Positions 13,090 through 40,527 of a stretch of DNA of 64,000 nt are shown here, one piece after another (within the stretch, counting starts at the first letter, position 1; the number at the start of each line of letters is the position of its first letter). The stretch is from Cyanobium sp. FGCU52. GTDB lineage: Bacteria > Cyanobacteriota > Cyanobacteriia > PCC-6307 > Cyanobiaceae. The notes under the pieces are model-generated. The model was not told where the DNA came from. It saw only the letters and a list, made by a program, of their open reading frames with translations, and ran no database searches. Made by a program: the position numbers and the translations under genes. Location: assembly GCA_024958715.1 (NCBI GenBank), contig JANWUS010000050.1:1-64000 (forward strand), given 5' to 3'.

Positions 13090-14190
13090 TCAGTCGATCC
13101 GGCCCTGCCGGTTCAGCAGGAAGGGGGGAATCATGGCGCCCCGCTCCTCAGCGGCGGCCTCGGGGGTGAAGGGGTTGGCGAAGGCGGTGGCTGCCGCAGG
13201 CCGGTCGAGGTTGTGGGTGCCCTGGCCCTCGAAGCCGGTGGCGATCACGGTCACGTGGATCTCGCCGTCGAGGCTTTCATCCACCACGGCGCCCACGATG
13301 ATGTTGGCGTCGGGATCGACCGAGTCGTAGATCACCTCGGAGGCCGTGGTCATGTCCTCGAGGGTCATGTCCTTGCCGCCGCTGATGTTGATCACGCAGC
13401 CGCGTGCTCCTTCGATGCGGGCAGACTCCAGCAGGGGGCTGCTGATCGCCGCCTGGGCCGCCTCACTGGCGCGCGAGCGTCCCGAGCCCACCCCGATGCC
13501 CAGCAGGGCCGTGCCCGCATCGGCCATCACCGAACGCACGTCGGCGAAGTCGACATTCACCAGACCCGGCTTGGTGATGATGTCGGTGATGCCCTTGACG
13601 GCCATGCGCAGCACATCGTCGGCGGCGCGGAAGGCATCCTGCAGGGGAGCGCCGGCGATCGCGTCGCGCAGGCGGTCGTTGGGGATCACGATCAGGGTGT
13701 CCACGTTCTCCGCCAGCCGGGCGATGCCCTCCTCGGCCTGGCGGAGGCGGCGACGGCCCTCGAATCCGAACGGCTTGGTGACGATGCCCACGGTGAGGGC
13801 GCCGCATTCCTTGGCCACCTCGGCCAGGATCGGCGCCGCACCGGTGCCGGTGCCGCCCCCCATGCCGGCGGCGATGAACACCAGATCGGCCCCCTCAAGC
13901 GACTGCTGCAGATCGGAGCGCGACTCCTCGGCCGCCTTCTGGCCGATCACCGGATTGCCTCCGGCACCGAGGCCGCGGGTGAGCTTCTGGCCCAGCTGGA
14001 TCCGCTGGCGGGCCGCCGACTGCAACAGGGCCTGGGCATCGGTGTTGAGCACCCGGTAGCCCACCCCCTGGAGATCGGCGGCGATCATCCGGTTCACGGC
14101 GTTGCTGCCGCCGCCGCCGACACCGATCACCTCGATCCGCGCCGACTGGCTCGGGACGATGCCATTGGTGCTCGCCGGTGTCTGGCTCAT
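13090..14190 (-). CDS. ftsZ: Cell division protein FtsZ
   Basis: 366 residues. The tubulin-like GTPase that forms the Z ring. GTP-binding features: VIGVGGGGSNAVNRMI, the signature GMGGGTGTGAAPILAEVAKE, and NVDFADVRSVM with the T7-loop region. The start at 14190 (MSQTPASTNG) is preferred because an AGGAG lies 9 bases upstream and the length fits picocyanobacterial FtsZ; in-frame ATGs at 14253, 14292 and 14358 lack such a site. The C-terminus ends IPPFLLNRQGRID, resembling the partner-binding tail. ftsQ lies upstream in the same direction. Confidence 0.96.
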   Translation of the reverse strand: MSQTPASTNGIVPSQSARIEVIGVGGGGSNAVNRMIAADLQGVGYRVLNTDAQALLQSAARQRIQLGQKLTRGLGAGGNPVIGQKAAEESRSDLQQSLEGADLVFIAAGMGGGTGTGAAPILAEVAKECGALTVGIVTKPFGFEGRRRLRQAEEGIARLAENVDTLIVIPNDRLRDAIAGAPLQDAFRAADDVLRMAVKGITDIITKPGLVNVDFADVRSVMADAGTALLGIGVGSGRSRASEAAQAAISSPLLESARIEGARGCVINISGGKDMTLEDMTTASEVIYDSVDPDANIIVGAVVDESLDGEIHVTVIATGFEGQGTHNLDRPAAATAFANPFTPEAAAEERGAMIPPFLLNRQGRID

Positions 14191-14390
14191 GTCGCTGTTC
14201 TCCTGCAAGGGCGTGAGATCCACGGGGAAGGGGGAGGCCGGTTCGCTCGCCATTGCGGGAGGGACGGGGATGCCGTTGATCTGCGGCTGCATTATGTCGG
14301 GGGCCGGGACCCTGGCCCGGAAGGGAACCAGCTTGACCCCGATCGCCCCAGAGGGCAATGGCCTGTGTGGGATGGCTGTCCGCCGTCGGC

Positions 14391-15230
14391 CTACTGGCCC
14401 CCGCGTGGTGGGCCGGCCAGCGTGGTTCCGGCCGGCGCGGCGCCCCCGCCGGGCAGGCTCAGCTCGGGCTGTTCGGGATCGCTCAGGTCGATCAGCCGCG
14501 GCGTCCGCCCCCCCAGCCTGGCGGGCAGGGTGGCCAGCAGATGGCCGGCCACCTCCAGGCGCCGGTCGAGCTGGTTGTCGGAGGGCCCGAGGCGCATCCG
14601 GCCCAGGGAGCCGCTGACCAGCCAGAGGCTGCCGTCGGGCTCGAAGCGCACCTCCTGGAGGCCGGGACCAAGCTGCTGCCGCTGGGCCAGCACGCGGGCC
14701 AGGGTGGGGCGGTGGCGTTCCGTCCAGCCCACCACCTTGAGGGTCAGATCCCCCTTGACCTTCACCCCGTCGTGCTGGCGGGTGCTGATCCAGCTGCCGA
14801 GCCGGTCGACATAACCCAGCTCCGGCCCCTGGGGGGTGCGGCGTTCGGCGCGGGCCACCGCTTCACGGTCCACCAGTTCCACCCGCAGACGGGGCGGCAG
14901 GATCGAGCGGCTCACCTGCACCCGCTCCACAGGCAGGGCCTGGGAGAGGCTGCTGCCCAGCTCCCGGGGCTGCAGGGTGAGCAGGGGCTGGGGGAAGCGG
15001 AGCCCAGCGGCCTGGATCACCTGGTCGCGGCTCACCAGCTGGCTGCCCACCACCTCCACCTGGGAGGCATCGCGAAGGTTCCAGCCGTCCTTGAGCAGCA
15101 CCCAGCCCAGGCCGGTGGCGATGGCACTGAAGGCGACGAGCTGCCAGAGCTGGCGCAGCCGCTCGGCCCGCCGCTGCTGCCTCAGCTGCTTGCGCCGGGC
15201 GGCACCGGGGGGAAGGGGGGAGCTGGTCAC
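14391..15230 (-). CDS. ftsQ: Cell division protein FtsQ
   Basis: 279 residues. A short basic cytoplasmic head, one membrane helix (residues about 31-46), then a POTRA domain starting near SQVEVVGSQLVSRDQVIQAAG and a periplasmic FtsQ domain with LPPRLRVELVDREAVA. FtsQ links the Z ring to septal wall synthesis. It sits in the cluster ddl - hypothetical - ftsQ - ftsZ, a remnant of the dcw cluster. Its ATG overlaps the stop of the upstream small gene by four bases. Confidence 0.88.
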   Translation of the reverse strand: MTSSPLPPGAARRKQLRQQRRAERLRQLWQLVAFSAIATGLGWVLLKDGWNLRDASQVEVVGSQLVSRDQVIQAAGLRFPQPLLTLQPRELGSSLSQALPVERVQVSRSILPPRLRVELVDREAVARAERRTPQGPELGYVDRLGSWISTRQHDGVKVKGDLTLKVVGWTERHRPTLARVLAQRQQLGPGLQEVRFEPDGSLWLVSGSLGRMRLGPSDNQLDRRLEVAGHLLATLPARLGGRTPRLIDLSDPEQPELSLPGGGAAPAGTTLAGPPRGGQ

Positions 15231-15637
15231 AGTTCGCAGCGGGAGCGGGCCATCAGTTCATCGATCCAGCGCCGGGCACGCTGCGCATCCGAGAAGGGCA
15301 GGTCCTTCTGGAGTCCGCCACCCACCAGGCGCAGCCGGCAGGGGCCCTGGCTCTCCTCGGTGAGCGGGGCCTCGCCGGAGCCCAGGGACAGCAGCTCCAC
15401 CAGCTCCAGCTGCTTGATCACGAAGCTGTCCACGGGCTGGAAGCTGCCGGCCTCGAAGCGGCACCAGCTGAGCACCCCGTCCAACAGGCGCGCGGCGCCG
15501 CAGCCATCGAGCTTGGCCAGCTCGGCACCCTCCGCCCAGGCTCGGAACAGCTGCTGGCGGCGGCGCTCCAGCCAGCCCAGGGCCGTGAGCAGCACGAACA
15601 CCAGCAGCAGGGGGATCCAGAGCAGCCCATGACTCAT
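15227..15637 (-). CDS. Conserved-looking hypothetical protein with N-terminal membrane helix
   Basis: 136 residues starting at an ATG that overlaps the TGA of ddl (ATGA). Residues 3-22 form one hydrophobic helix ([19 protein letters not shown]); the rest is soluble and contains [24 protein letters not shown] and a final helix [12 protein letters not shown]. No domain is recognised. Position between ddl and ftsQ with overlaps at both ends suggests a role in envelope or division, by context only. Confidence 0.75.
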
Positions 15638-16731
15638 GTCGCGCCACCTCCTGCGGGGCTTCGATGCAGGGATTCTCTCGCCTCCTGCACCAGTTGGTGC
15701 ACGAGCTGCTCGCGCGACACCCCGCTCGCCTCCCACAGCATCGGGTACATGCTCTGGGGGGTGAAGCCCGGCAGGGTGTTGATCTCGTTGAGCCAGAGGT
15801 CGCCGCTGGCCTCCTCATAGAAGAAGTCGACCCGCGACAGGCCGCTGGCCCCCACCGCCCGGCAGGCCTCGATCGCCATGCCGCGCGCCTGCTCGGCCAC
15901 CAACGGGGGCACCTCGGCGGGGATCACGGTGTGGCTCAGGCCTTCGCTGTACTTGGTGGTGTAGTCGTACCAGTCGGCATCGAAACGGATCTCGCCGAGC
16001 ACCGAGGCCTGCAGGCTGCGGGTGCCGAGCACGGCGCATTCCAGTTCCCGGGCCTTCACCCCCTGCTCCACCACCAGGCGCGGGTCCAGGGCGGCGGCGG
16101 TGTGCAGCCCCGCCAGCAGGGAGCTGCGGTCGGTGGCCTTGCTGATGCCCACCGAGGAGCCCATGTTGGCGGGCTTGACGAAGCAGGGGTAGCCCAGCCG
16201 GGACTCCAGCTGATTGAGCAGGCCCTCGCCGTCGCCGGTCAGTTCCTCTGCGCCGACGCAGAGATAGGGCACCTGGGGCAGGCCGGCGGCGGCGAAGGCC
16301 GCCTTCATCGCCTGCTTGTCCATCCCCACCGCCGACCCCAGCACGCCGGAACCCACGAACGGCACCTGCATCAGGGTGAACAGCCCCTGGATCGTGCCGT
16401 CCTCGCCGTTGGGACCGTGCAGCACCGGGAACCACACCTCCACCTCCAGCGCTCCCTCGGGGAAACCGCGGAAGCCGGGCTGGCTGGGATCGGCCGGCAG
16501 GCTGCCCGGTTCGGGCGGGGTGCCCTTCTCCAGCACGGCTTCGGCCACCGCAGGCGGCCACCAGCGACCCTGGCGGTCGATGTAGAAGCAGGCCACCCGG
16601 TAGCGCTCGCCATTGGCCCCGCTGTTCAGGGCCGCCAGCACCGTGGCCGCGGAGCGGATCGACACCGCATGTTCATCCGAAGCGCCACCGAACAGCAGGC
16701 CCACCAGGGTGGGGGAGGGGCGGCTGCTCAT
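15634..16731 (-). CDS. ddl: D-alanine--D-alanine ligase
   Basis: 365 residues, ATP-grasp enzyme that makes the D-Ala-D-Ala dipeptide for peptidoglycan. N-terminal [20 protein letters not shown]-grasp core [35 protein letters not shown] and the C-terminal metal/ATP site [18 protein letters not shown] are all present. It begins the ddl-ftsQ-ftsZ run; the downstream gene is coupled through an ATGA overlap. Confidence 0.96.
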
Positions 16732-19051: not shown

Positions 19052-20449
19052 CTAGGCAGGGGTTGCGCTCCCCCCCAGGGAGAAGGCGCGCACCGTGTTG
19101 ATGCGCACCTTCACCAGATCGCCGGCCCGGAAGCTGCCGCCCCGGCCGTCGTCGGCGGCGAAGAAGGTGAGCCGGTTGGTGCGGGTGCGGCCCATCACCT
19201 GGGCGGCGTCCTTCGGGTTGACACCCTCCACCAGCACCTCCTCGACGCGTCCCAGGTAGCGGGCGCTGCGCTCGCGGGCGGTGCGCTCCACCAGGGCATT
19301 GAGCTCCTGCAGCCGCTCCACCTTCACGGCTTCGGGAAGCTGGTCGGGCCAGTCGGCGGCCGGGGTGTTGGGGCGCGGGGAGTAGGCGGCGGTGTTCACC
19401 TGGTCGAAGCCGATCGCCTCGATCAGGGCCAGGGTGCGGCGGTACTGGGCGTCGGTTTCGCCCGGGAAGGCCACGATCACGTCGGCGCTGATCGCCGCAT
19501 CGGGCATGCGCTCGCGGATGCGGTCGATGATGCGGCGGTAGCGCTCCACCGTGTAGCCCCGGGCCATCGCCCGCAGCACCTCGTCGTCGCCGCTCTGGAA
19601 GGGGATGTGGAAGTGCTCGCACACCTTCGGCAGGTCGGCGCAGGCATCGATCAGCCGCTCGGTGAAGTAGCGCGGGTGGCTGGTGGCGAAGCGGATCCGC
19701 TCGATCCCCGCCACGTCGTGCACGCCGTGCAGCAGGTCGGTGAGGGTGTGGCGGCGGCGCCCCTCGGGGGTGATGCCCGGCAGGTCGCGGCCGTAGGCAT
19801 CGATGTTCTGCCCCAGCAGGGTGATCTCCTTGTACCCCTGGGCGGCGAGCCCCTCCATCTCCAGTCGGATGGCCTCGGGCAGGCGGCTCTGCTCCCGTCC
19901 CCGCACCGAGGGCACCACGCAGTAGGTGCAGCGCTCGTTGCAGCCGTAGATCACGTTCACCCAGGCGCACACCTGGCTGTCGCGCCGGGCGGTGGTGATG
20001 TCCTCGAGGATGTGGTGCTCCTCGGTGGCGACCACCTGCTGCCCCTGCTCCACCCGCGCCAGCAGGGTGTCGAGCCGGTTGGCGTGCTGGGGCCCCATCA
20101 CCAGATCGAGTTCGGGAACCCGCCGCAGCAGCGATTCGCCCTCCTGCTGGGCCACGCAGCCCGCCACCACCAGGGTGAGGTGGGGGTTGGCGCGCTTGCG
20201 CTGGGCCTGGCGTCCCAGGTAGCTGTACACCTTCTGCTCCGCGTTGTCGCGGATCGTGCAGGTGTTGTAGAGCACCAGATCCGCCTCGAACTCCCCCGCC
20301 GCGGCGCGGTAGCCCATGGTTTCCAGGATTCCGGCCATGCGTTCGGAATCCGCCTTGTTCATCTGGCAGCCGAAGGTGGTGATCCAGTAGCTGCCGCGCT
20401 TCGGGGCGGGAGTCCCCTGGGTGGGGAGCGGGGAAAGGGTTGCCGTCAT
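19052..20449 (-). CDS. miaB: tRNA-2-methylthio-N6-dimethylallyladenosine synthase
   Basis: 465 residues. MiaB adds the 2-methylthio group to i6A37 of tRNAs reading UNN codons. Order: N-terminal UPF0004 cluster domain ([32 protein letters not shown]), radical SAM motif CNERCTYC in [21 protein letters not shown], and a C-terminal TRAM domain ending near [18 protein letters not shown]. Both Fe-S cysteine sets are present. It is divergent from the epimerase gene. Confidence 0.96.
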
Positions 20450-20535: not shown

Positions 20536-21621
20536 ATGCACTGCCGGCTTCACCGCATCCCGCTCACCAAGGCCGTGCCGCTGGCGATCAGCCGGGGCAC
20601 CACCGCGTCGGTGGAGCACCTGCTGTTGGCGATCGAGCACGAGGGGATCATCGGCATCGGCGAGACTGGCGGCTTCGACACCGGCCACCGTTGCTTCAGC
20701 ACCGACGCGGTGGTCGATGAGCTCTCTGCCCTGGCGCCCCGGCTGGCCGAGCGCAGCCCGGAACCCATGCAGGAGCTCGAACCCCTGCTGGCGGATCTGT
20801 CGCCGCCGGCCCGCTGCGGGCTGGATCTGGCCCTGCACGACTGGTGGGGCAAGCGGCTGGGGCAGCCCGTGGGGCGGCTCTGGGGTCTGGATCCCGGCGT
20901 CTCGGCGCCCACGAGCGTCACCCTGGGCCTGGGGTCGGTGGAGGCGGTGCTGGCGCGGCTGGAGCGCTGGTGGGACCAGCTCCCCGCCACCCGCATCAAG
21001 CTCAAGCTCGGCAGTCCCGACGGAGCCGACCACGACCGGGCCCTGGTGGAGGCCGTGGCCGCCGCCCTCCAGCGCCATCGCGCCACCACCGGCGTTGCCT
21101 GTGAACTGCAGGTGGACGCCAATGGCGGCTGGGATCTGGAGCGGGCCCGCTCCATGCTCGGCCTGCTGGCGGAGCATGGGGTGGTGCTGGTGGAGCAGCC
21201 CCTGCCGCCCCAGGAGGATCCCGACGCCGACTGCGCCGGCTTCGCCGCCCTCGACCTCGACTGCCCGATGGCGCTGGTGGCGGACGAGAGCTGCTGGGAT
21301 CTGCACGATCTGCTGCGGCTGGCGCCCCATGTCGATGGGGTGAACATCAAGCTGCTCAAGAGCGGCGGATTGGCGGAGGCCCTGCTGATGGCCCGAACCT
21401 CCCGCCGCCTGGGCCTGTCGGTGATGCTCGGCTGCTACTCCGATGCCGCCCTGCTCAACGGGGCCGCCGCCCAGCTGCTGCCGCTGGTCGACTGGCCGGA
21501 TCTCGACAGCCATCTCAATCTGGTGGACGACCCCTTCCGCGGCCCCGTGCTTGTGGGGGATCGCCTGCTCCCCGGCACCGGCCCGGGCCTGGGCGTGACG
21601 GTTGAGGGGCTGCCGTGCTGA
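20536..21621 (+). CDS. dgcA: Enolase-superfamily epimerase, DgcA-like (N-acetyl-D-glutamate racemase or dipeptide epimerase)
   Basis: 361 residues from the ATG at 20536. The muconate-lactonizing subgroup layout is seen: KxK general base region IKLKLG, metal ligands in VDANGGW, LVEQPLP and LVADESC, and the second lysine in GVNIKLLKSGG. Annotated homologues are called L-Ala-D/L-Glu epimerases. However the next gene is a DUF1611/DgcN protein, and the pair dgcA-dgcN has been described as a D-glutamate catabolic route in which DgcN acetylates D-Glu and DgcA racemises N-acetyl-D-Glu. The symbol is given on that context; peptide recycling remains an alternative. Confidence 0.75.
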   Translation: MHCRLHRIPLTKAVPLAISRGTTASVEHLLLAIEHEGIIGIGETGGFDTGHRCFSTDAVVDELSALAPRLAERSPEPMQELEPLLADLSPPARCGLDLALHDWWGKRLGQPVGRLWGLDPGVSAPTSVTLGLGSVEAVLARLERWWDQLPATRIKLKLGSPDGADHDRALVEAVAAALQRHRATTGVACELQVDANGGWDLERARSMLGLLAEHGVVLVEQPLPPQEDPDADCAGFAALDLDCPMALVADESCWDLHDLLRLAPHVDGVNIKLLKSGGLAEALLMARTSRRLGLSVMLGCYSDAALLNGAAAQLLPLVDWPDLDSHLNLVDDPFRGPVLVGDRLLPGTGPGLGVTVEGLPC

Positions 21622-22715
21622 CGGACCGCCACCGGGTGGTGCTGCTCCAGCACGGGGGACTCGACGACATGCGCGGCAAGACCGGTCTCGCCCTGCTGCG
21701 CTACCGCCGCGGGCCCGTGGTGGCGGTGATCGATCCGGCCCACGCGGGGCAGTCGCTGCGCCAGGCCTGCGGCATCGAGCGGGACGTGCCGGTGGTGGCG
21801 ACGATGGCGGAGGCGCTGGTGCACCGGCCCGAGGTGGCGGTGGTCGGTCTGGCTCCGTCGGGGGGGCGGCTGCCGCCGGAGATGCGCTCCGACATCGCTG
21901 CGGGGCTGCGGGCGGGCCTGTCGTTGGCCAGCGGGCTCCACAGCCGGCTGGGGGAGGATCCGGAGCTGGCGGCCCTGCGGCGGCCGGAGGCCTGGATCTG
22001 GGATCTGCGCCGGGAGCCGGACGATCTGGTGGTGGGCTCCGGCCGGGCCGCGGCGCTTCCCTGCCACCGGGTGCTGGCGGTGGGTTCGGACATGTCGGTG
22101 GGCAAGATGAGCACCTGCCTGGAGCTGCGGGCCGCCGCCCTGGCCCGGGGGCTGGACGCCCGCTTCGTGGGCACCGGCCAGGCCGGGATCCTGATCGACG
22201 GCCGCGGCGTCGCCCTCGATGCCGTGCGGGTGGACTACGCCGGCGGCGCCGTGGAACAGGCGGTGCTGGCCGCGGCCGAGGGGGCCGCCCCCGGGGCCCT
22301 GCTGCTGGTGGAGGGTCAGGGGTCTCTGGCCCATCCCGGCTCCACCGCCACCCTGCCGCTGATCCGGGGCAGCCAGCCCACGGCGCTGGTGATGGTGCAC
22401 CGGGCCGGCCAGGAGACGATCCGCAACCTCGACGATGTGCCCCTGCCGCCCCTGCCGGAGCTGATCGCCTGCGTGGAATCCCTCGCGGCCCTGGGGCGTC
22501 CGGCCCAGACCGGACCGGGGCCCAGGGTGAAGGCCGTTGCCCTCAACACCGCGCACCTCGATGAGCGAGCGGCCCGTAAGGCCGTGGAGGCCACGGCCCT
22601 TCTGACCGGCCTGCCCTGTGCCGACGTGGTGCGGCAGGGAGGGCAGAGTCTGCTGGAGAACCTCCTGGAAGGAGGAAAGAAAAGGGCGAGCGAGGGGACT
22701 CGAACCCCCGAATAG
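21615..22715 (+). CDS. dgcN: DUF1611 protein, DgcN-like (D-glutamate N-acetyltransferase candidate)
   Basis: 366 residues overlapping the end of the epimerase gene by 7 bases. N-terminal Rossmann-like domain; C-terminal P-loop-like domain with VGSDMSVGKMSTCLELRAAA, FVGTGQAGILIDGRG and LVEGQGSLAHPGST, all typical of DUF1611. Members paired with DgcA are D-glutamate N-acetyltransferases. The last ~10 codons (GTRTPE) are read through the antisense strand of the tRNA-His gene, so the true C-terminus is tied to that overlap. Activity is inferred from family and pairing. Confidence 0.78.
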   Translation: MLTDRHRVVLLQHGGLDDMRGKTGLALLRYRRGPVVAVIDPAHAGQSLRQACGIERDVPVVATMAEALVHRPEVAVVGLAPSGGRLPPEMRSDIAAGLRAGLSLASGLHSRLGEDPELAALRRPEAWIWDLRREPDDLVVGSGRAAALPCHRVLAVGSDMSVGKMSTCLELRAAALARGLDARFVGTGQAGILIDGRGVALDAVRVDYAGGAVEQAVLAAAEGAAPGALLLVEGQGSLAHPGSTATLPLIRGSQPTALVMVHRAGQETIRNLDDVPLPPLPELIACVESLAALGRPAQTGPGPRVKAVALNTAHLDERAARKAVEATALLTGLPCADVVRQGGQSLLENLLEGGKKRASEGTRTPE

Positions 22716-22758
22716 CGGCGCCACAAGCCGCTGCCTTAACCACTTGGCGACGCCCGCC
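22685..22758 (-). tRNA. tRNA-His (anticodon GTG)
   Basis: On the minus strand the cloverleaf folds with acceptor GCGGGCG / CGCTCGC, an additional 5' G (position -1) facing C73 as expected for tRNA-His, D-arm GCCAAGTGGTTAAGGC, anticodon loop TTGTGGC with GTG, and T-arm GGGGGTTCGAGTCCCC. The CCA is not encoded. A T-rich tract follows. The last 31 bases of dgcN overlap it on the other strand. Confidence 0.97.
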
Positions 22759-22855: not shown

Positions 22856-23281
22856 TTGCCCGTTCCCGCCCCTTTCCTTCCCCAGCGCATCGGCTTCGCT
22901 CTGGTGGTTCTCGTTGCCGGGGCCGTGGGCCTGGCCAGCACCAATCCCGGCCCTGACGCCTTTGCAGAGTTCGCCGGCGATCAGCTCACCCGCCTGCTCA
23001 CCGAGGAGCTCTGCGAGCCCGATGGCCTGCCGATGGTGCTGCGGCTGGTGATCCGTGACTGCCCCGGCCTCGTTCGCTCCCAGCGCCACACCCTGGGCCG
23101 CCTGGCCCTGGAGCACACCCGCCGCCGCAACCTGGGGGTGGCCAGCCTGTATCGCACCGATCTCGGCGGCCAGGAACTCGTGGGTTCCCTGCGCCTCCCC
23201 CATTACCGCGCCCTGACGCTGGCGGCTGCCGGACAGTTCGTGCTCGTGCGCACTGACACCCTCACGGGTGAGGAGCGTTGA
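22856..23281 (+). CDS. DUF4359 domain protein
   Basis: 141 residues (TTG start chosen because it precedes a hydrophobic helix IGFALVVLVAGAVGLA). After the helix, the segment STNPGPDAFAEFAGDQLTRLLTEELC matches the cyanobacterial DUF4359 pattern (NP-x4-Y/F-x2-Y/F-A ... L-C), followed by two more cysteines. A small membrane-anchored extracytoplasmic protein of unknown role. Its TGA overlaps the TTG of the next gene (TTGA), so it is coupled to the amidohydrolase. Confidence 0.72.
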   Translation: MPVPAPFLPQRIGFALVVLVAGAVGLASTNPGPDAFAEFAGDQLTRLLTEELCEPDGLPMVLRLVIRDCPGLVRSQRHTLGRLALEHTRRRNLGVASLYRTDLGGQELVGSLRLPHYRALTLAAAGQFVLVRTDTLTGEER

Positions 23282-24567
23282 GCAACGCACTGCCGCCGCT
23301 GCGGATCCCCAGGGTTCTGCTCGATCCCAGCGATCCCCACCTGCGCACCGACGCCGATGGGCTGGTCACGCTGCGGCTGGAGGTGGCGGACGGTCGCATC
23401 AAGGCGCTCCAGTCCCTCGATCCCCAGGTGGACCTGGAACGATCTTCCGCCGCACCCCTGGCCCTCACCCCGCTGGCGGAGGCCCACGCCCACCTCGACA
23501 AGGCCTTCACCGTGGAGGCCTTCCCCAATCGCCACGGCACGATCGCCGGTGCCCTGGAGGCCAACCTGCGGGAGATCGCCCAGCGGCGGCCCGAGCAGGT
23601 GGAGGCCCGGGCCGGCCTCGCCCTCGAGCGGGCCTGGCGGAACGGCCTGCGGGCGATCCGCAGCCACGTGGACACCCTCGGGCCCTGCGGCCTCGGCAGC
23701 TGGGAGGTGCTCGAGCACCTGGCCCACCGCTGGGCCGATCGGCTGGAGCTCCAGCGGGTGGCCCTGGTGCCGATCGGCCACTGGTGCACGGGCGAGGGCG
23801 AGGAGCTGGCGCGGCGGGTGGCCCTCTCCGGCGGGGTGCTGGGCGGTGTGCTGGGCCTGCCGGGCCGGCGGCAGGCCGACGACGCTGAAGCGCTCCGCGC
23901 CCTGCTGGCCCTCGCCGAGCGGTTCGGCTGCCCGGTGGATCTGCACATCGACGAGGCGGATGGCGCGCCGGCCTACGGCCTGCGGCTGCTGAACCGTGAG
24001 CTCAGGCGCCGGCACCCCGGCGTGCCGATCGTCTGCAGCCACGCCAGCAGCATGGGTCTGCTGGCGAACGGGGCCTGCCGCCGGCTGGCCGAGGCCCTGG
24101 CCCCGCAGCTGGCCGGGGTGGTGGCCCTGCCGAGCACCAACCTCTGGCTGCTCTCCCGCCAGCCGGGCCGCACGCCCTGCCGGCGGCCGCTGGCGCCGAT
24201 CCGGCAGCTGCAGGAGGCGGGGGTTCCCGTGGCGGTGGGCGGCGACAACGTGCAGGACCCCTGGTATCCAGGGGGTGACTTCGATCCGATCGAGCTGCTG
24301 CGCTTCGCCCTGCCCGCCGCCCAGCTCGAGCCCTGGCGCCGCACCGGTCTGGCACCGTTCACCACCGCCGCCGCCCGGGTTCTGGGCCTGGCCTGGGACG
24401 GGGTGCTCCGGCCCGGTGCCCCCGCCGATCTGGTGGTGCTGGCGGCCACGGGCTGGGGCGACCTGCTGGCCTGCACACCCCAGCGGCGGGTGCTGCGGGC
24501 CGGGCGCTGGCTGCCGCCTCCCCCGCAGCAGGAACCCTCTCCCCTGCTGGCCGCCCTTCCTCTCTGA
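23278..24567 (+). CDS. Amidohydrolase, cytosine-deaminase-like
   Basis: 429 residues with a TIM-barrel metal-dependent hydrolase pattern: the metal ligands LAEAHAHLDKAF, SHVDTLGPCG, VDLHIDEADG, CSHASSMG and GGDNVQDPWYPGG, in the order of CodA-type cytosine deaminases, which release ammonia from cytosine or related rings. TTG start coupled to the upstream DUF4359 gene. The substrate could be cytosine, isoguanine, a creatinine-like ring or other nitrogen compound; no specific match is claimed. A FAD-linked oxidase follows in the same direction after 12 bases. Confidence 0.82.
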   Translation: MSNALPPLRIPRVLLDPSDPHLRTDADGLVTLRLEVADGRIKALQSLDPQVDLERSSAAPLALTPLAEAHAHLDKAFTVEAFPNRHGTIAGALEANLREIAQRRPEQVEARAGLALERAWRNGLRAIRSHVDTLGPCGLGSWEVLEHLAHRWADRLELQRVALVPIGHWCTGEGEELARRVALSGGVLGGVLGLPGRRQADDAEALRALLALAERFGCPVDLHIDEADGAPAYGLRLLNRELRRRHPGVPIVCSHASSMGLLANGACRRLAEALAPQLAGVVALPSTNLWLLSRQPGRTPCRRPLAPIRQLQEAGVPVAVGGDNVQDPWYPGGDFDPIELLRFALPAAQLEPWRRTGLAPFTTAAARVLGLAWDGVLRPGAPADLVVLAATGWGDLLACTPQRRVLRAGRWLPPPPQQEPSPLLAALPL

Positions 24568-24579
24568 TCCCTGCTCCCC

Positions 24580-25971
24580 ATGTCCCTGCCACCCTCCCTG
24601 AGCCGCCCCGAGGCGGTGAGCGATGAGCGGGTCGCGGCCCTGGCCGCGGAGCTGGCGGCGTCCCATCCCGGGATCGCTCTGCTGGCAGGGGCGGCCGATC
24701 TCACCCGCCTGTCCCGCGATTTCCACGACTATTCGCCGGTGCTGCAGCAGCAGCTGGAGGGGCGGCGGGCCCAGCTGGCCGTGCGGGTGCACACGGTGGA
24801 GCAGGTGATGGCCGTGGCCGGCGCCTGCGCCCGCCATGGAGTGCCGCTCACGCCCCGCGGGGCCGGCACCGGCAACTACGGCCAGTGCGTGCCCCTGGCC
24901 GGCGGCGTGGTGCTCGATCTCACCGGCCTCAACCGGCTCCGCGTGATCGACCCGCTCAGCGGGGTGGTGGAGGCGGAGGCAGGGGCCCTGCTGGGGGATC
25001 TGGAGGCCCAGCTCCGGCCCGCGGGCCGCTCCCTGCGGCTGCTGCCGAGCACCTGGCGCACCGCCAGCCTGGGGGGCTTCATCGCCGGTGGCTCGGGCGG
25101 CATCGGCTCGCTGCGCTGGGGATTCCTGCGGGATCCCGGCAATCTCCTGGGTCTGGAGATCGTCACCGTCGAGCCCAGCCCACGCCGGCTGCGGTTCGAT
25201 GCCGCCGGCAGCGCCCCCCTGAATCACGCCTACGGCACCAACGGCATCCTCACGGCGGTGCGGCTGGCCACCGCCGAGGCGGTGACCTGGCAGCAGCTGG
25301 TGGTCGACTTCGCCGACGGCGACGCGGCCCTGGCCGCGGTGGGCGCCCTGCCGGCCACGGCCCTGCTGCTGCAGTCCCTGACCCTGCTGGAGGCGCCGAT
25401 CGCCGCGGCGCTGCCGTCTCCCCCCGGCTGCCCGGCCCCGGAGCCCGGCGCTCACCGGCTGCTGCTGCTGGCCGCCCCCGACAGCCTCGAGGTTCTGCCC
25501 CACTGGCTGGAGGAGCGGGGCGGCCGGCTGCGCTGGCAGGCGCCCGAGGGGGACGGCCGGGCCATGCCCCTGCGGGAACTGGGCTGGAACCACACCACCC
25601 TGCACTGGCGGGCCCGCCATCAAGGCTGGACCTACCTGCAGATGCTGCTGCCCCGACCGGAGACGCCCCTGATCGCCGCCGTGCGCGAGCGCTGGGGCCA
25701 CGACGTGCTCTGGCACCTGGAGGCGGTGCGCCAGGACGGGGCGACCCGGCTGGCCGCGCTCCCCCTGGTGCGCTGGCGGGGTGCCGGCGACCTGGCGGAG
25801 CTGATGGAGCAGTGCCGCAGCCTGGGTGCGGTGATCTTCAACCCGCACGTGCTCACCGTGGAGGACGGGGGCCTGGGGGTGATCGACGCCGACCAGGTGG
25901 CCGCCAAGGCGGCCCACGACCCCGCCGGCCTGCTCAACCCCGGCAAGCTGCGCGGCTGGGACGAGCGCTGA
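24580..25971 (+). CDS. FAD-linked oxidase / FAD-binding oxidoreductase
   Basis: 463 residues of the PCMH-type FAD-binding family (GlcD-like). The pyrophosphate-binding region PLTPRGAGTGNYGQCVPLAGGVVLDLTGLNRL and the segment GGFIAGGSGGIGSLRWGFLRDPGNLLGLEIV are clear; the C-terminal end AAKAAHDPAGLLNPGKLRGW is the usual closing motif. Substrate (a hydroxy acid, sugar acid or amino derivative) unknown. It is the third gene of DUF4359 - amidohydrolase - oxidase. Confidence 0.88.
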   Translation: MSLPPSLSRPEAVSDERVAALAAELAASHPGIALLAGAADLTRLSRDFHDYSPVLQQQLEGRRAQLAVRVHTVEQVMAVAGACARHGVPLTPRGAGTGNYGQCVPLAGGVVLDLTGLNRLRVIDPLSGVVEAEAGALLGDLEAQLRPAGRSLRLLPSTWRTASLGGFIAGGSGGIGSLRWGFLRDPGNLLGLEIVTVEPSPRRLRFDAAGSAPLNHAYGTNGILTAVRLATAEAVTWQQLVVDFADGDAALAAVGALPATALLLQSLTLLEAPIAAALPSPPGCPAPEPGAHRLLLLAAPDSLEVLPHWLEERGGRLRWQAPEGDGRAMPLRELGWNHTTLHWRARHQGWTYLQMLLPRPETPLIAAVRERWGHDVLWHLEAVRQDGATRLAALPLVRWRGAGDLAELMEQCRSLGAVIFNPHVLTVEDGGLGVIDADQVAAKAAHDPAGLLNPGKLRGWDER

Positions 25972-28386: not shown

Positions 28387-29616
28387 TCAGGCCAGGGCCA
28401 TCAGGGCCTTCTCCAGCCGCTTCACCGCCTTGCGGATGTGGCGCGGGCGGATCACCAGGGGCGGCACCAGGCGCACCACCTTCGGCCCGGCCGGAACGAG
28501 CAGCAGCCCCTCGGCCATCGCCGCCTTGACCACCTCCGCAGCCGTGGGCGCCTGCTCGCGCAGCACCAGACCCTGCAGCAGACCCCAGCCGCGGGCGCTC
28601 TCCACGAGCTGCGGATGGCGGATCGCCAGGTCGGTGAGGGCCTCGGCCAGCAGGGCCTCCATGCGGCGCACATGCTCCAGCAGCCCCCGCTGCTCGATCT
28701 CCTCGATCACCGTGAGACCGGCGCGACAGGCGAAGGGGTTGCCGCCGAAGGTGCTGGCGTGCTCGCCGGGCCGGAAGTGATCGGCGTGGGCCTTCACCGC
28801 CAGCGCTCCGATCGGGATGCCGCCGCCGAGGCCCTTGGCCGCGGTGAAGGCGTCGGGTTCCACCCCCAGCCGTTCGTAGCCCCACCAGCGGCCGCTGCGC
28901 CCCACGCCGATCTGCACCTCATCGAAGATCAGCAGGATCCGGCGCTCGTCGCAGAGTTCGCGCAGCCGCTGGAAGAAGGCGGGATCCCCCGGATTCACGC
29001 CACCCTCGCCCTGCAGGGGTTCCACCAGCACGGCGGCCACCCGCGGCCCTTCGGCCTCGCATTCGGCCAGCAGGGCCTCGAAGGCGGCGGTGTCGTTGTA
29101 GGGGAAGTAGCGGAAGCCCTGCACCATCGGCTCGAAGCCTTCGTGGTACTTGGGCTGGCCCGTGGCCGTGACGGCGGCGAGGGTGCGGCCGTGGAAGCTG
29201 GCCTTGGCGGTGAGGATCAGGGGGTCCTGGATGCCCCGCACCAGGTGGCCATGCTTGCGGGCCAGCTTGATCGCCGCTTCGTTGGCCTCGGCGCCGGAAT
29301 TGCAGAAGAACACCCGGTCAGCGCAGCTGCGGGCGACGATCGCCGCCGCCAAGGCCTCCTGTTCAGGGATCCGGTAGAGGTTCGAAACGTGCTGGAGGCG
29401 CCGGAGCTGGCGGCAGAGGCTGCGCCGCAGCACCGGATCGCTGTGGCCGAGGGTGCACACGGCGATGCCGGCCACCGCATCGAGGTAGCGGCGACCCTCG
29501 CGGTCCCACACCCACACGCCCCGACCCCGGACCAGCTCGAGGGGATAGCGCGCGTAGGTGTCCATCACGGGGGACACCGGTGCCGGCGCAGCGGGCGCGG
29601 GCGTGAGAGTGACCAT
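28387..29616 (-). CDS. argD: Acetylornithine aminotransferase
   Basis: 409 residues, class III PLP aminotransferase. PLP lysine in DAFTAAKGLGGGIPIGAL (Lys near residue 251), VFFCNSGAEANEAAIKLARKHG, FHGRTLAAVTATGQPKYHEGF, and LIFDEVQIGVGRSGRWWGYE. Converts N-acetylglutamate semialdehyde to N-acetylornithine; some homologues also act on succinyl-diaminopimelate. The ATG at 29616 was used; the longer frame runs into the tRNA and is not real. Confidence 0.95.
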   Translation of the reverse strand: MVTLTPAPAAPAPVSPVMDTYARYPLELVRGRGVWVWDREGRRYLDAVAGIAVCTLGHSDPVLRRSLCRQLRRLQHVSNLYRIPEQEALAAAIVARSCADRVFFCNSGAEANEAAIKLARKHGHLVRGIQDPLILTAKASFHGRTLAAVTATGQPKYHEGFEPMVQGFRYFPYNDTAAFEALLAECEAEGPRVAAVLVEPLQGEGGVNPGDPAFFQRLRELCDERRILLIFDEVQIGVGRSGRWWGYERLGVEPDAFTAAKGLGGGIPIGALAVKAHADHFRPGEHASTFGGNPFACRAGLTVIEEIEQRGLLEHVRRMEALLAEALTDLAIRHPQLVESARGWGLLQGLVLREQAPTAAEVVKAAMAEGLLLVPAGPKVVRLVPPLVIRPRHIRKAVKRLEKALMALA

Positions 29617-29633
29617 CGGCGCGACAACGGCGA

Positions 29634-29715
29634 TGGGAGCGGTGGGACTCGAACCCACATGCCCGAAGGCGCTCGATTTTGAGTCGAGTCCGTCTACCAA
29701 TTCCGGCACGCTCCC
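29634..29715 (-). tRNA. tRNA-Leu (anticodon CAA)
   Basis: Minus strand: acceptor GGGAGCG / CGCTCCC with A73, D-arm containing GGAATTGGTAGAC, anticodon arm with loop CTCAAAA (CAA), a long class II variable arm (GCGCCTTCGGGCATG region) and T-arm GTGGGTTCGAGTCCCAC. Long variable arm fits leucine; it decodes UUG. Gene is upstream of argD, same strand. Confidence 0.96.
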
Positions 29716-39027: not shown

Positions 39028-40527
39028 ATGACCCAGCTGCTCCATCCGCTGCTCCACCAGGTGGGTCTGCCGGTGTCTCCCGCTCTGCCGAACGCGGAGC
39101 TGGAGAGCATCAGCTGTGATTCCCGGCGGGTCGGACCCGGCACCCTGTTCATCGGTCTGCCGGGCACACGGGTGGATGGCGGCCGCTTCTGGCGTGAGGT
39201 GCTGGCCGCCGGGGCCCCGGTGGCGCTGATCAGTGCGGCCGCGGCCGCCGCGGAGCCCCCCGCTCCCGGCGACCCGGTGCTGGTGGTGCCGGATCCGGTG
39301 GCCTTCTGGGCCGGGGAGCTGGCTTCGGCCTTCTGGCAGCACCCGAGCCGCCGGTTCCAGCTGATCGGTGTCACCGGCACCAACGGCAAGACCACCACCA
39401 GCTTCCTGATCGAGCATCTGGCGGCCCGCTCCGGCCATCCGGCGGCCCTGTTCGGCACCCTGGTGAACCGCTGGCCCGGGCACAGCGTCACCGCCCAGCA
39501 CACCACCGCCTTCGCCGACACCCTGCAGACCCAGCTGGCCCAGGCGGTGGAGGCCGGCGCCCGGATCGGTGCCATGGAGGTGAGCTCCCATGCCCTCGAC
39601 CAGCAGCGGGTGGCCGGCTGCCGCTACGCCGGGGTGGTGTTCACCAACCTCACCCAGGACCACCTCGACTACCACCCCACCATGGACGACTACTTCGCCG
39701 CCAAGGCGAAGCTGTTCGGCCCGCCCCTGCTCAGCGGCGGCGCCGTGGTGAACATCGACGATCCCTGGGGGCGGCGGCTTGCGGACCGTCTGCGGCAGGA
39801 GAACCGCCTCTGCTGGAGCAGTTCACTCGAGGATCCGGGCGCCGACCTGCGGATCGTGGACCTGCAGATGGCGGCCGATGGGGTGGCGGGCACCCTGGTG
39901 AGCCCGGTGGGGGAGGGGGCGTTCCGCTCGCCGCTGGTGGGCCGCTTCAACCTGATGAATCTGCTGGAGGCCGTGGGCGTGCTCGCCCAGCTTGAGATTC
40001 CGCTGGCCCGGCTGTTGGCGGGGCTGGGCAGTTTCCGCGGGGTGCCCGGCCGGATGGAGCGGGTGGCAGGGCCGGGTGGCCGGCCGGCTCCCTCCGTGCT
40101 GGTGGACTACGCCCACACCCCTGACGGCCTGCAGAACGCCCTGGCTGCCTGCCGCCCCTTCACCCGGGGCCGCCTGATCTGCGTGTTCGGCTGCGGCGGT
40201 GATCGCGACCGCAGCAAACGGCCCCAGATGGGGGCGATCGCGGCCCGGCTGGCCGATGCGGTGGTGGTCACCTCCGACAACCCGCGCACGGAAGATCCCC
40301 GCAGGATCCTCGAGGATGTGGTGGCGGGCATCCCGGCCGGCACCGCCCTCCAGGTGGAGGAGGATCGGGCCGCGGCGATCGCCGCTTCGATCGCCACAGC
40401 CGGGCCGGACGATCTGGTGCTGATCGCCGGCAAGGGCCATGAGGACTATCAGATCCTCGGCACCACCAAGATCCACTTCGACGACCGGGAGGAGGCCGAG
40501 CGGGCCCTGCGGGCCCGGGGCGGCTGA
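39028..40527 (+). CDS. murE: UDP-MurNAc-L-Ala-D-Glu:meso-DAP ligase
   Basis: 499 residues. Mur ligase with P-loop [18 protein letters not shown] (about residue 113), [13 protein letters not shown], and the DAP-selective DNPR motif ([13 protein letters not shown], about residue 416) as in Gram-negative-type peptidoglycan. Adds meso-diaminopimelate to the stem peptide. Cytosolic. The C-terminal [13 protein letters not shown] is typical. Confidence 0.97.

Follow-up and report, generated by a model that had tools for sequence, protein, structure and literature searches.

A cyanobacterial gene pair related to DgcN and DgcA, with a predicted role in the salvage of D-glutamate

The original paper on DgcN and DgcA reportedly described the former as a D-glutamate N-acetyltransferase and the latter as an N-acetyl-glutamate racemase. 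These activities are named as Enzyme Commission (EC) 2.3.1.312 and EC 5.1.1.25 (PMC11747546), dgcN and dgcA transcripts are reported from Shewanella with D-glutamate as the nitrogen source (PMC10845958), and dgcN is termed the key gene of a D-glutamate racemisation pathway (PMC12363236); the main text of the last of these contains no word beginning with "cyanobacteri", and judging by titles and the starts of abstracts we found no paper on this gene pair in cyanobacteria. Here we analyse a related pair in a stretch of 64,000 nucleotides (nt) from Cyanobium sp. FGCU52 (contig JANWUS010000050.1, positions 1 to 64,000), referred to as the window. An enolase-superfamily (MR_MLE) racemase/epimerase of 361 amino acids (aa) is encoded at 20536..21621 on the + strand (ATG 20536, stop 21619-21621; Pfam MR_MLE_N and MR_MLE_C above cut-off), and a DUF1611 / DgcN-superfamily protein of 366 aa at 21615..22715, also + (GTG 21615; DUF1611_N and DUF1611 above cut-off). 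As the initial annotation had stated, the two genes overlap, and they do so by 7 nt (21615..21621, + strand, from the coordinates of the open reading frames). Our preferred reading, to which we give an even chance, is that the pair is a DgcN/DgcA-like module predicted to recover D-glutamate released as the cell turns over its own wall.

The association of the two genes goes far beyond chance. Among 200 sampled genomes from the order, with the window genome included, the epimerase is present in 105 and DUF1611 in the same 105, always adjacent to it and always on one contig and strand (105/105), with -4 to 1051 nt between the match ends (median 35; stop codons not counted). For this count an epimerase was taken as present if its match exceeded 800 nt and a DUF1611 gene if its match exceeded 600 nt, and two genomes were scored as present although one match in each was incomplete or broken, namely G046, where the epimerase match is split in two, and G197, where the DUF1611 match covers 216 residues; the remaining 95 genomes had no match, fragments, or a second DUF1611 type only (G182). 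Across the phylum, 71 of 244 genomes carry both genes and one (G252) the epimerase alone. The pair is no peculiarity of picocyanobacteria. The DgcN-type gene is adjacent to the epimerase in 65 of these 71 genomes and separated from it in 6; the epimerase comes first in 60 of the adjacent pairs, and DUF1611 comes first in the other 5, which belong to another class. Left out of the phylum count were 13 epimerase matches that were weak or partial (E 1e-14 to 8e-4) and one distant DUF1611 match, that of G395; G305 and G364 were kept despite partial matches. Locus L092, from G252, represents the sole genome of the 72 counted that has an epimerase but no DUF1611 gene, and its epimerase groups with the dipeptide epimerase 3iji.

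The loss of the pair tells the same story as its presence. Epimerase fragments only were found in six genomes, five of which were read (L177-L181, from G004, G029, G127, G185 and G058; the sixth, G122, with 59 aa at 44% identity, was not among them), and at all five loci remnants of the pair lie between miaB and the gene for the histidine transfer RNA (tRNA-His). Residues 1-199 of the marine epimerase query, an over-extended open reading frame antisense to miaB, were ignored in this reading. The extent of loss differs between the loci and the further neighbours are retained, the amidohydrolase and FAD-binding oxidase genes at 5/5, which indicates that the two genes decayed together and in place. 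Where both genes persist they are maintained by purifying selection, as seen from ratios of nonsynonymous to synonymous substitution rates (dN/dS) against five relatives of 0.22-0.33 for the epimerase and 0.26-0.41 for DUF1611. In the trees of both proteins the sequences of the order (10 loci used) join those of other cyanobacteria with support 1.0. The pair is an ancient, inherited cyanobacterial module, kept and lost together, and is not special to the window genome. Three simpler accounts were considered and set aside: chance adjacency is ruled out by the order counts, the phylum counts and the shared decay at one site; a pseudogene by the intact residues and the dN/dS of 0.22-0.41; and a recent gene transfer into the window genome finds no support, given the grouping with other cyanobacteria in both trees.

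The initial annotation had called this a DgcA-DgcN-like pair, and the homology behind that name stands. The best NCBIfam match of the epimerase is DgcA (NF042940), and DgcN (NF041892) is the sole NCBIfam match of the DUF1611 protein, itself the only match to PF07755 in the genome; PF07755 also has a match in Synechococcus elongatus. The AlphaFold model of the latter (predicted local distance difference test, pLDDT, 90.4) matches the solved DgcN 7xrj, titled N-acetyltransferase, at Z 37.2 over 329 of 366 residues with a root-mean-square deviation of 3.0; it matches 2obn (Ava_3511 from Anabaena variabilis) at Z 47.3, with 53% identity over 346 residues, and TM0796 (2g0t) at Z 37.5. The abstract of the DgcN paper is said to give DUF1611/DgcN a GNAT fold; no GNAT entry stands among the 50 listed fold matches of our model, and the fold may still be of that kind. 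The protein contains a G-x5-GK loop (157-164), TGQ (187-189), EGQGSL (233-238), D207 and R340. K164, T187, Q189, E233 and Q235 are universal in 137 DUF1611 sequences, and the residues conserved in four DgcN sequences (K164, T187, Q189, D202, D207, E214, E233, Q235 and R340) are all kept. D207, R340 and G83 are each kept in 4/4 DgcN sequences, and in 26/26, 25/26 and 26/26 haloarchaeal members, respectively. D207 and G83 are likewise kept in the cyanobacterial members paired with an epimerase. The residue alignment drew on 10 of the order's 43 loci, and some cyanobacterial genomes are represented twice in its set of 29. The epimerase has R20, K155, K157, K272, D194, E220, D250 and D322 and D324 of a DxD motif (322-324); from the enolase superfamily we take K155, K157 and K272 to be the acid/base residues and D194, E220 and D250 the metal ligands.

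On the preferred reading, the DUF1611 protein would put an acyl group, probably acetyl from acetyl-coenzyme A (CoA), on the amino group of D-glutamate, and the enolase-superfamily enzyme would invert the configuration at the alpha carbon, a proton being passed between two opposed lysines, to yield N-acyl-L-glutamate. With acetyl as the acyl group, this product would be the substrate of ArgB, which the genome encodes, and could also give back L-glutamate. Since MurI-, ArgJ- and ArgB-type genes are present, both D-glutamate and a use for N-acetyl-L-glutamate exist in this organism. The initial annotation had offered two sources of D-glutamate, peptidoglycan and dissolved matter. Turnover of the cell's own peptidoglycan is possible, and in the proposed mechanism it is the likely source.

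Several observations weigh against this reading. Neither protein reaches the curated cut-off, DUF1611 scoring 219.4 bits on the DgcN model against 480 and the epimerase 146.9 bits on the DgcA model against 400, so that the homology of the pair stands and membership of the curated families does not. DUF1611 proteins from five other epimerase pairs, two of them haloarchaeal, also fall below the DgcN cut-off (L096 253, L117 267, L142 256, L162 281 and L079 235 bits; 5/5), while two Proteobacterial proteins scanned pass it (493 and 551 bits), from which it appears that the model's threshold was set to fit proteobacterial members; the epimerase partners of the five score 196-263 bits on the DgcA model. 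At two otherwise conserved positions the cyanobacterial protein departs from DgcN: residue 251 is R in 39/39 cyanobacterial sequences and H in DgcN (4/4), haloarchaea (26/26) and others (52/56), and residue 266 is Q in 37/39 and R in DgcN (4/4), haloarchaea (22/26) and others (44/56). R340 is replaced by K in 2/4 sequences from the other class of the phylum, and D207, R340 and G83 are also kept in DUF1611 members without an epimerase neighbour, so that they do not prove D-glutamate as the substrate and only argue against the second DUF1611 type described below. The nearest solved chain to the epimerase by sequence is the dipeptide epimerase 3iji of Bacteroides thetaiotaomicron. The phylogeny against DgcA that the initial annotation had proposed, when run, placed the window enzyme with 3iji, L092 and members from the other class (support 0.948) and outside the annotated proteobacterial DgcA clade (L032, L033 and L035); in the same tree, annotated DgcA, 4gfi and Escherichia coli YcjG form one clade. 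Interconversion of D- and L-glutamate is already provided by MurI and would not by itself call for the pair. Among the genes adjoining the window pair we recognised neither a transporter nor a regulator, in contrast to L032, which has dgcR, and L035, which has LysR and symporter genes. NtcA control was considered and dropped, its site GTAN8TAC being present upstream of the pair in 2 of 68 cases where 3.7 would be expected, a count in which some genomes appear twice and the starts of open reading frames may be over-extended. These last two results lend no support to the use of dissolved D-glutamate as a nitrogen source, as had been suggested, and we infer from them that salvage of internal D-glutamate is favoured over scavenging. 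Finally, the wider locus survey, which covers the best 80 of at least 586 relatives of one haloarchaeal protein, is an uneven sample.

Of the 80 loci in that survey, 50 have DUF1611 adjoining an epimerase, 21 of the 50 being haloarchaeal. No recurring racemase was seen by eye at 15 viewed loci where DUF1611 has no epimerase next to it (14 of the 30 such loci among the best 80, and the plasmid locus L034). At L174 (3911-6430), from a metagenome-assembled genome of Candidatus Spechtbacteria, the gene after DUF1611 resembles, by eye, one of the Mur-ligase type, a possible hint of a link to the cell wall. A DUF1611 paralogue with 32-37% identity occurs in 33 of the 200 order genomes, and at six of six loci read, all picocyanobacterial (L040-L045, from G149, G174, G055, G045, G184 and G160), it overlaps a pyridoxal phosphate (PLP)-type racemase related to Orr, of which the one scanned scores 302 bits on NF040742 (cut-off 480). 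The same arrangement is found on two Proteobacterial plasmids, of Ruegeria and Vibrio (L038 and L039). Pairing with a second, unrelated racemase fold in some of the same organisms suggests that DUF1611 has a wider family of racemase partners. The Orr-paired members lack D207 and G83 (8/8) and R340 (7/8); the window protein keeps all three and is therefore not of this type, although R251 is common to both (8/8), which counts with the residue changes above as a difficulty for the preferred reading.

The chemistry of the DUF1611 protein could be read in two other ways. Its C-terminal domain matches P-loop proteins, namely MinD, cobyrinic-acid amidating and dethiobiotin synthetase structures, which follow as the next fold matches from Z 13.5 down, and its G-x5-GK loop is BioD-like; the protein might on these grounds be an adenosine triphosphate (ATP)-dependent ligase or kinase of the dethiobiotin-synthetase/MinD class in place of an acyl-CoA transferase. 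ATP enzymes with such loops carry Thr or Ser after the loop lysine. Here K164 is followed by M, K, R or L in 137/137 sequences and never by Thr or Ser, so that the phosphate-binding loop seems no longer built for Mg-ATP, which would suit the binding of a CoA phosphate instead. With the far stronger match to the solved DgcN, titled N-acetyltransferase, we regard a ligase or kinase as very improbable. A smaller departure would keep the same two steps with a different substrate or acyl group, DUF1611 using another acyl donor or acidic D-amino acid and the epimerase racemising the resulting N-acyl amino acid. The cyanobacteria-wide R251 and Q266 would fit such a shift, as would the closeness of the epimerase model to the N-succinyl-Arg/Lys racemase 2p88 (Z 42.7), equal to that of dipeptide epimerases, and the pairing of DUF1611 with an Orr-like fold, from which the range of acceptors may exceed D-glutamate. 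Retention of D207 and R340, which the Orr-paired members have lost (8/8 and 7/8), counts against such a shift, and we consider it unlikely.

A more serious alternative, possible but clearly less probable than the preferred reading, places the epimerase in murein recycling: an AvPCP-type endopeptidase would free L-Ala-D-Glu, the epimerase would convert it to L-Ala-L-Glu for dipeptidases, and DUF1611 would act on the same dipeptide or on escaped D-glutamate. The structure 3iji was solved with L-Ala-D-Glu, the DxD motif is kept, and the nesting of YcjG inside the DgcA clade puts dipeptide use within reach of the family. The front end of such a route exists in the window genome, which has an AvPCP/NpPCP-type endopeptidase and an S66 peptidase. 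However, the DxD motif is kept in proteins annotated as DgcA too and is not diagnostic. The epimerase also misses the L-Ala-D/L-Glu epimerase models, with 105 bits on NF011708 (YcjG-type; cut-off 343) and 56 bits on NF041118 (cut-off 500). The AvPCP-type NlpC endopeptidase is found in 199 of 200 order genomes and S66 in 195, against 105 for the epimerase, always with DUF1611; the epimerase thus tracks DUF1611 and not these families, whose near universality made their co-occurrence with it uninformative as a guide to function. No YkfC-type gamma-D-Glu-diaminopimelate endopeptidase gene was found beside the epimerase; the gene of the AvPCP type is on a different contig (C74). Haloarchaea have no murein. 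The occurrence of the same pairing at the 21 haloarchaeal loci of the survey rules out murein dipeptides as the general substrate. Neither the fold nor the residues of the epimerase decide between the two substrates. Dipeptide epimerases, chloromuconate cycloisomerase and N-succinyl-amino-acid racemase are tied as its fold matches (Z 42.7-43.3; 4gfi at 39.0), so that fold ranking was no help, and a residue test of dipeptide against N-acetyl substrates gave no discriminating residue. Because YcjG nests in the DgcA clade and Ruegeria DgcA matches YcjG at 262 bits, the residues compared cannot tell an N-acetyl-glutamate racemase from an L-Ala-D/L-Glu epimerase.

Should the preferred reading hold, much of the cyanobacterial phylum would possess a route for D-glutamate that has gone unrecognised, and the solved structure 2obn, whose title gives no function, would gain a testable one. 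Many genomes of 1.5-1.9 Mb in the sample are without the pair (G154 and G197, of that size, keep it) and would then handle the D-glutamate of the wall differently. A bolder and rather doubtful extension is that DUF1611 proteins partner quite generally with amino-acid racemases, these having at least two unrelated folds, and that its ancient, vertically inherited cyanobacterial version turns peptidoglycan D-glutamate into N-acetyl-L-glutamate, which would feed PII-controlled ArgB without ArgJ and link wall turnover to arginine and nitrogen storage.

The surroundings of the pair are conserved. To its left lies the divergent miaB (19052..20449, - strand; TIGR01574 441 bits, cut-off 355), which adjoins the pair in 15/18 viewed loci of the order, some of these loci being short. 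A longer epimerase reading frame from TTG 20440 would overlap miaB, and for most relatives the alignment with a query starting at ATG 20536 begins at query residue 1-6. The right boundary is tRNA-His(GTG) (22684..22757, - strand), present at 42/42 scanned loci (41 genomes of the order) and antisense to the 3' end of DUF1611, the final codons of which (22684-22715) extend into it. In many relatives the DUF1611 stop codon comes earlier, and in the window it falls inside the tRNA-His antisense; the last residues of the window protein are thus read from tRNA sequence, and the model falls below pLDDT 50 over residues 355-366. Beyond the tRNA, at 23278-25971, follow a cytosine-deaminase-like amidohydrolase, which adjoins the pair in 15/18 viewed loci of the order, and an FAD-binding oxidase, both below NCBIfam cut-offs. 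The acetylornithine aminotransferase gene argD, placed in the window by the initial annotation, is indeed there (28387..29709, - strand; TIGR00707 475 bits, cut-off 410), not adjacent to the pair. The genes ftsZ, ddl and murE (13090-16731 and 39028-40527) do not adjoin it either; they lie less than 20 kb from it, and no operon link was seen.

Among known systems, the DgcN-DgcA pairs of marine Proteobacteria and haloarchaea share with the window pair homologous proteins of the same folds, adjacent or overlapping genes, the catalytic residues of the racemase and the universal residues of DUF1611. They differ in gene order, DUF1611 coming first in DgcN-DgcA and the epimerase first here; the window proteins score below both NCBIfam cut-offs, the epimerase stands outside the annotated DgcA clade, DUF1611 carries H251R and R266Q, and no DgcR or transporter was recognised alongside. 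The dipeptide epimerases 3iji, YcjG (1jpd, E. coli) and 1jpm (Bacillus subtilis) have the fold, acid/base lysines, metal ligands and DxD of the window enzyme, but the partner of the latter is DUF1611, whereas for some of them an association of the YkfC type is described (PMC2954226). The DUF1611 and Orr-like pairs (ornithine/alanine racemase, PLP) resemble it in that DUF1611 overlaps an amino-acid racemase gene, and are unlike it in the unrelated fold of that racemase and in their DUF1611, which lacks D207 and G83 (8/8) and keeps R340 in 1/8. Closest to the window DUF1611 is 2obn, with sequence divergence as the sole difference. Judged by sequence, then, the pair lies outside the curated DgcN and DgcA families and represents the cyanobacterial form of a type of gene pair already known.

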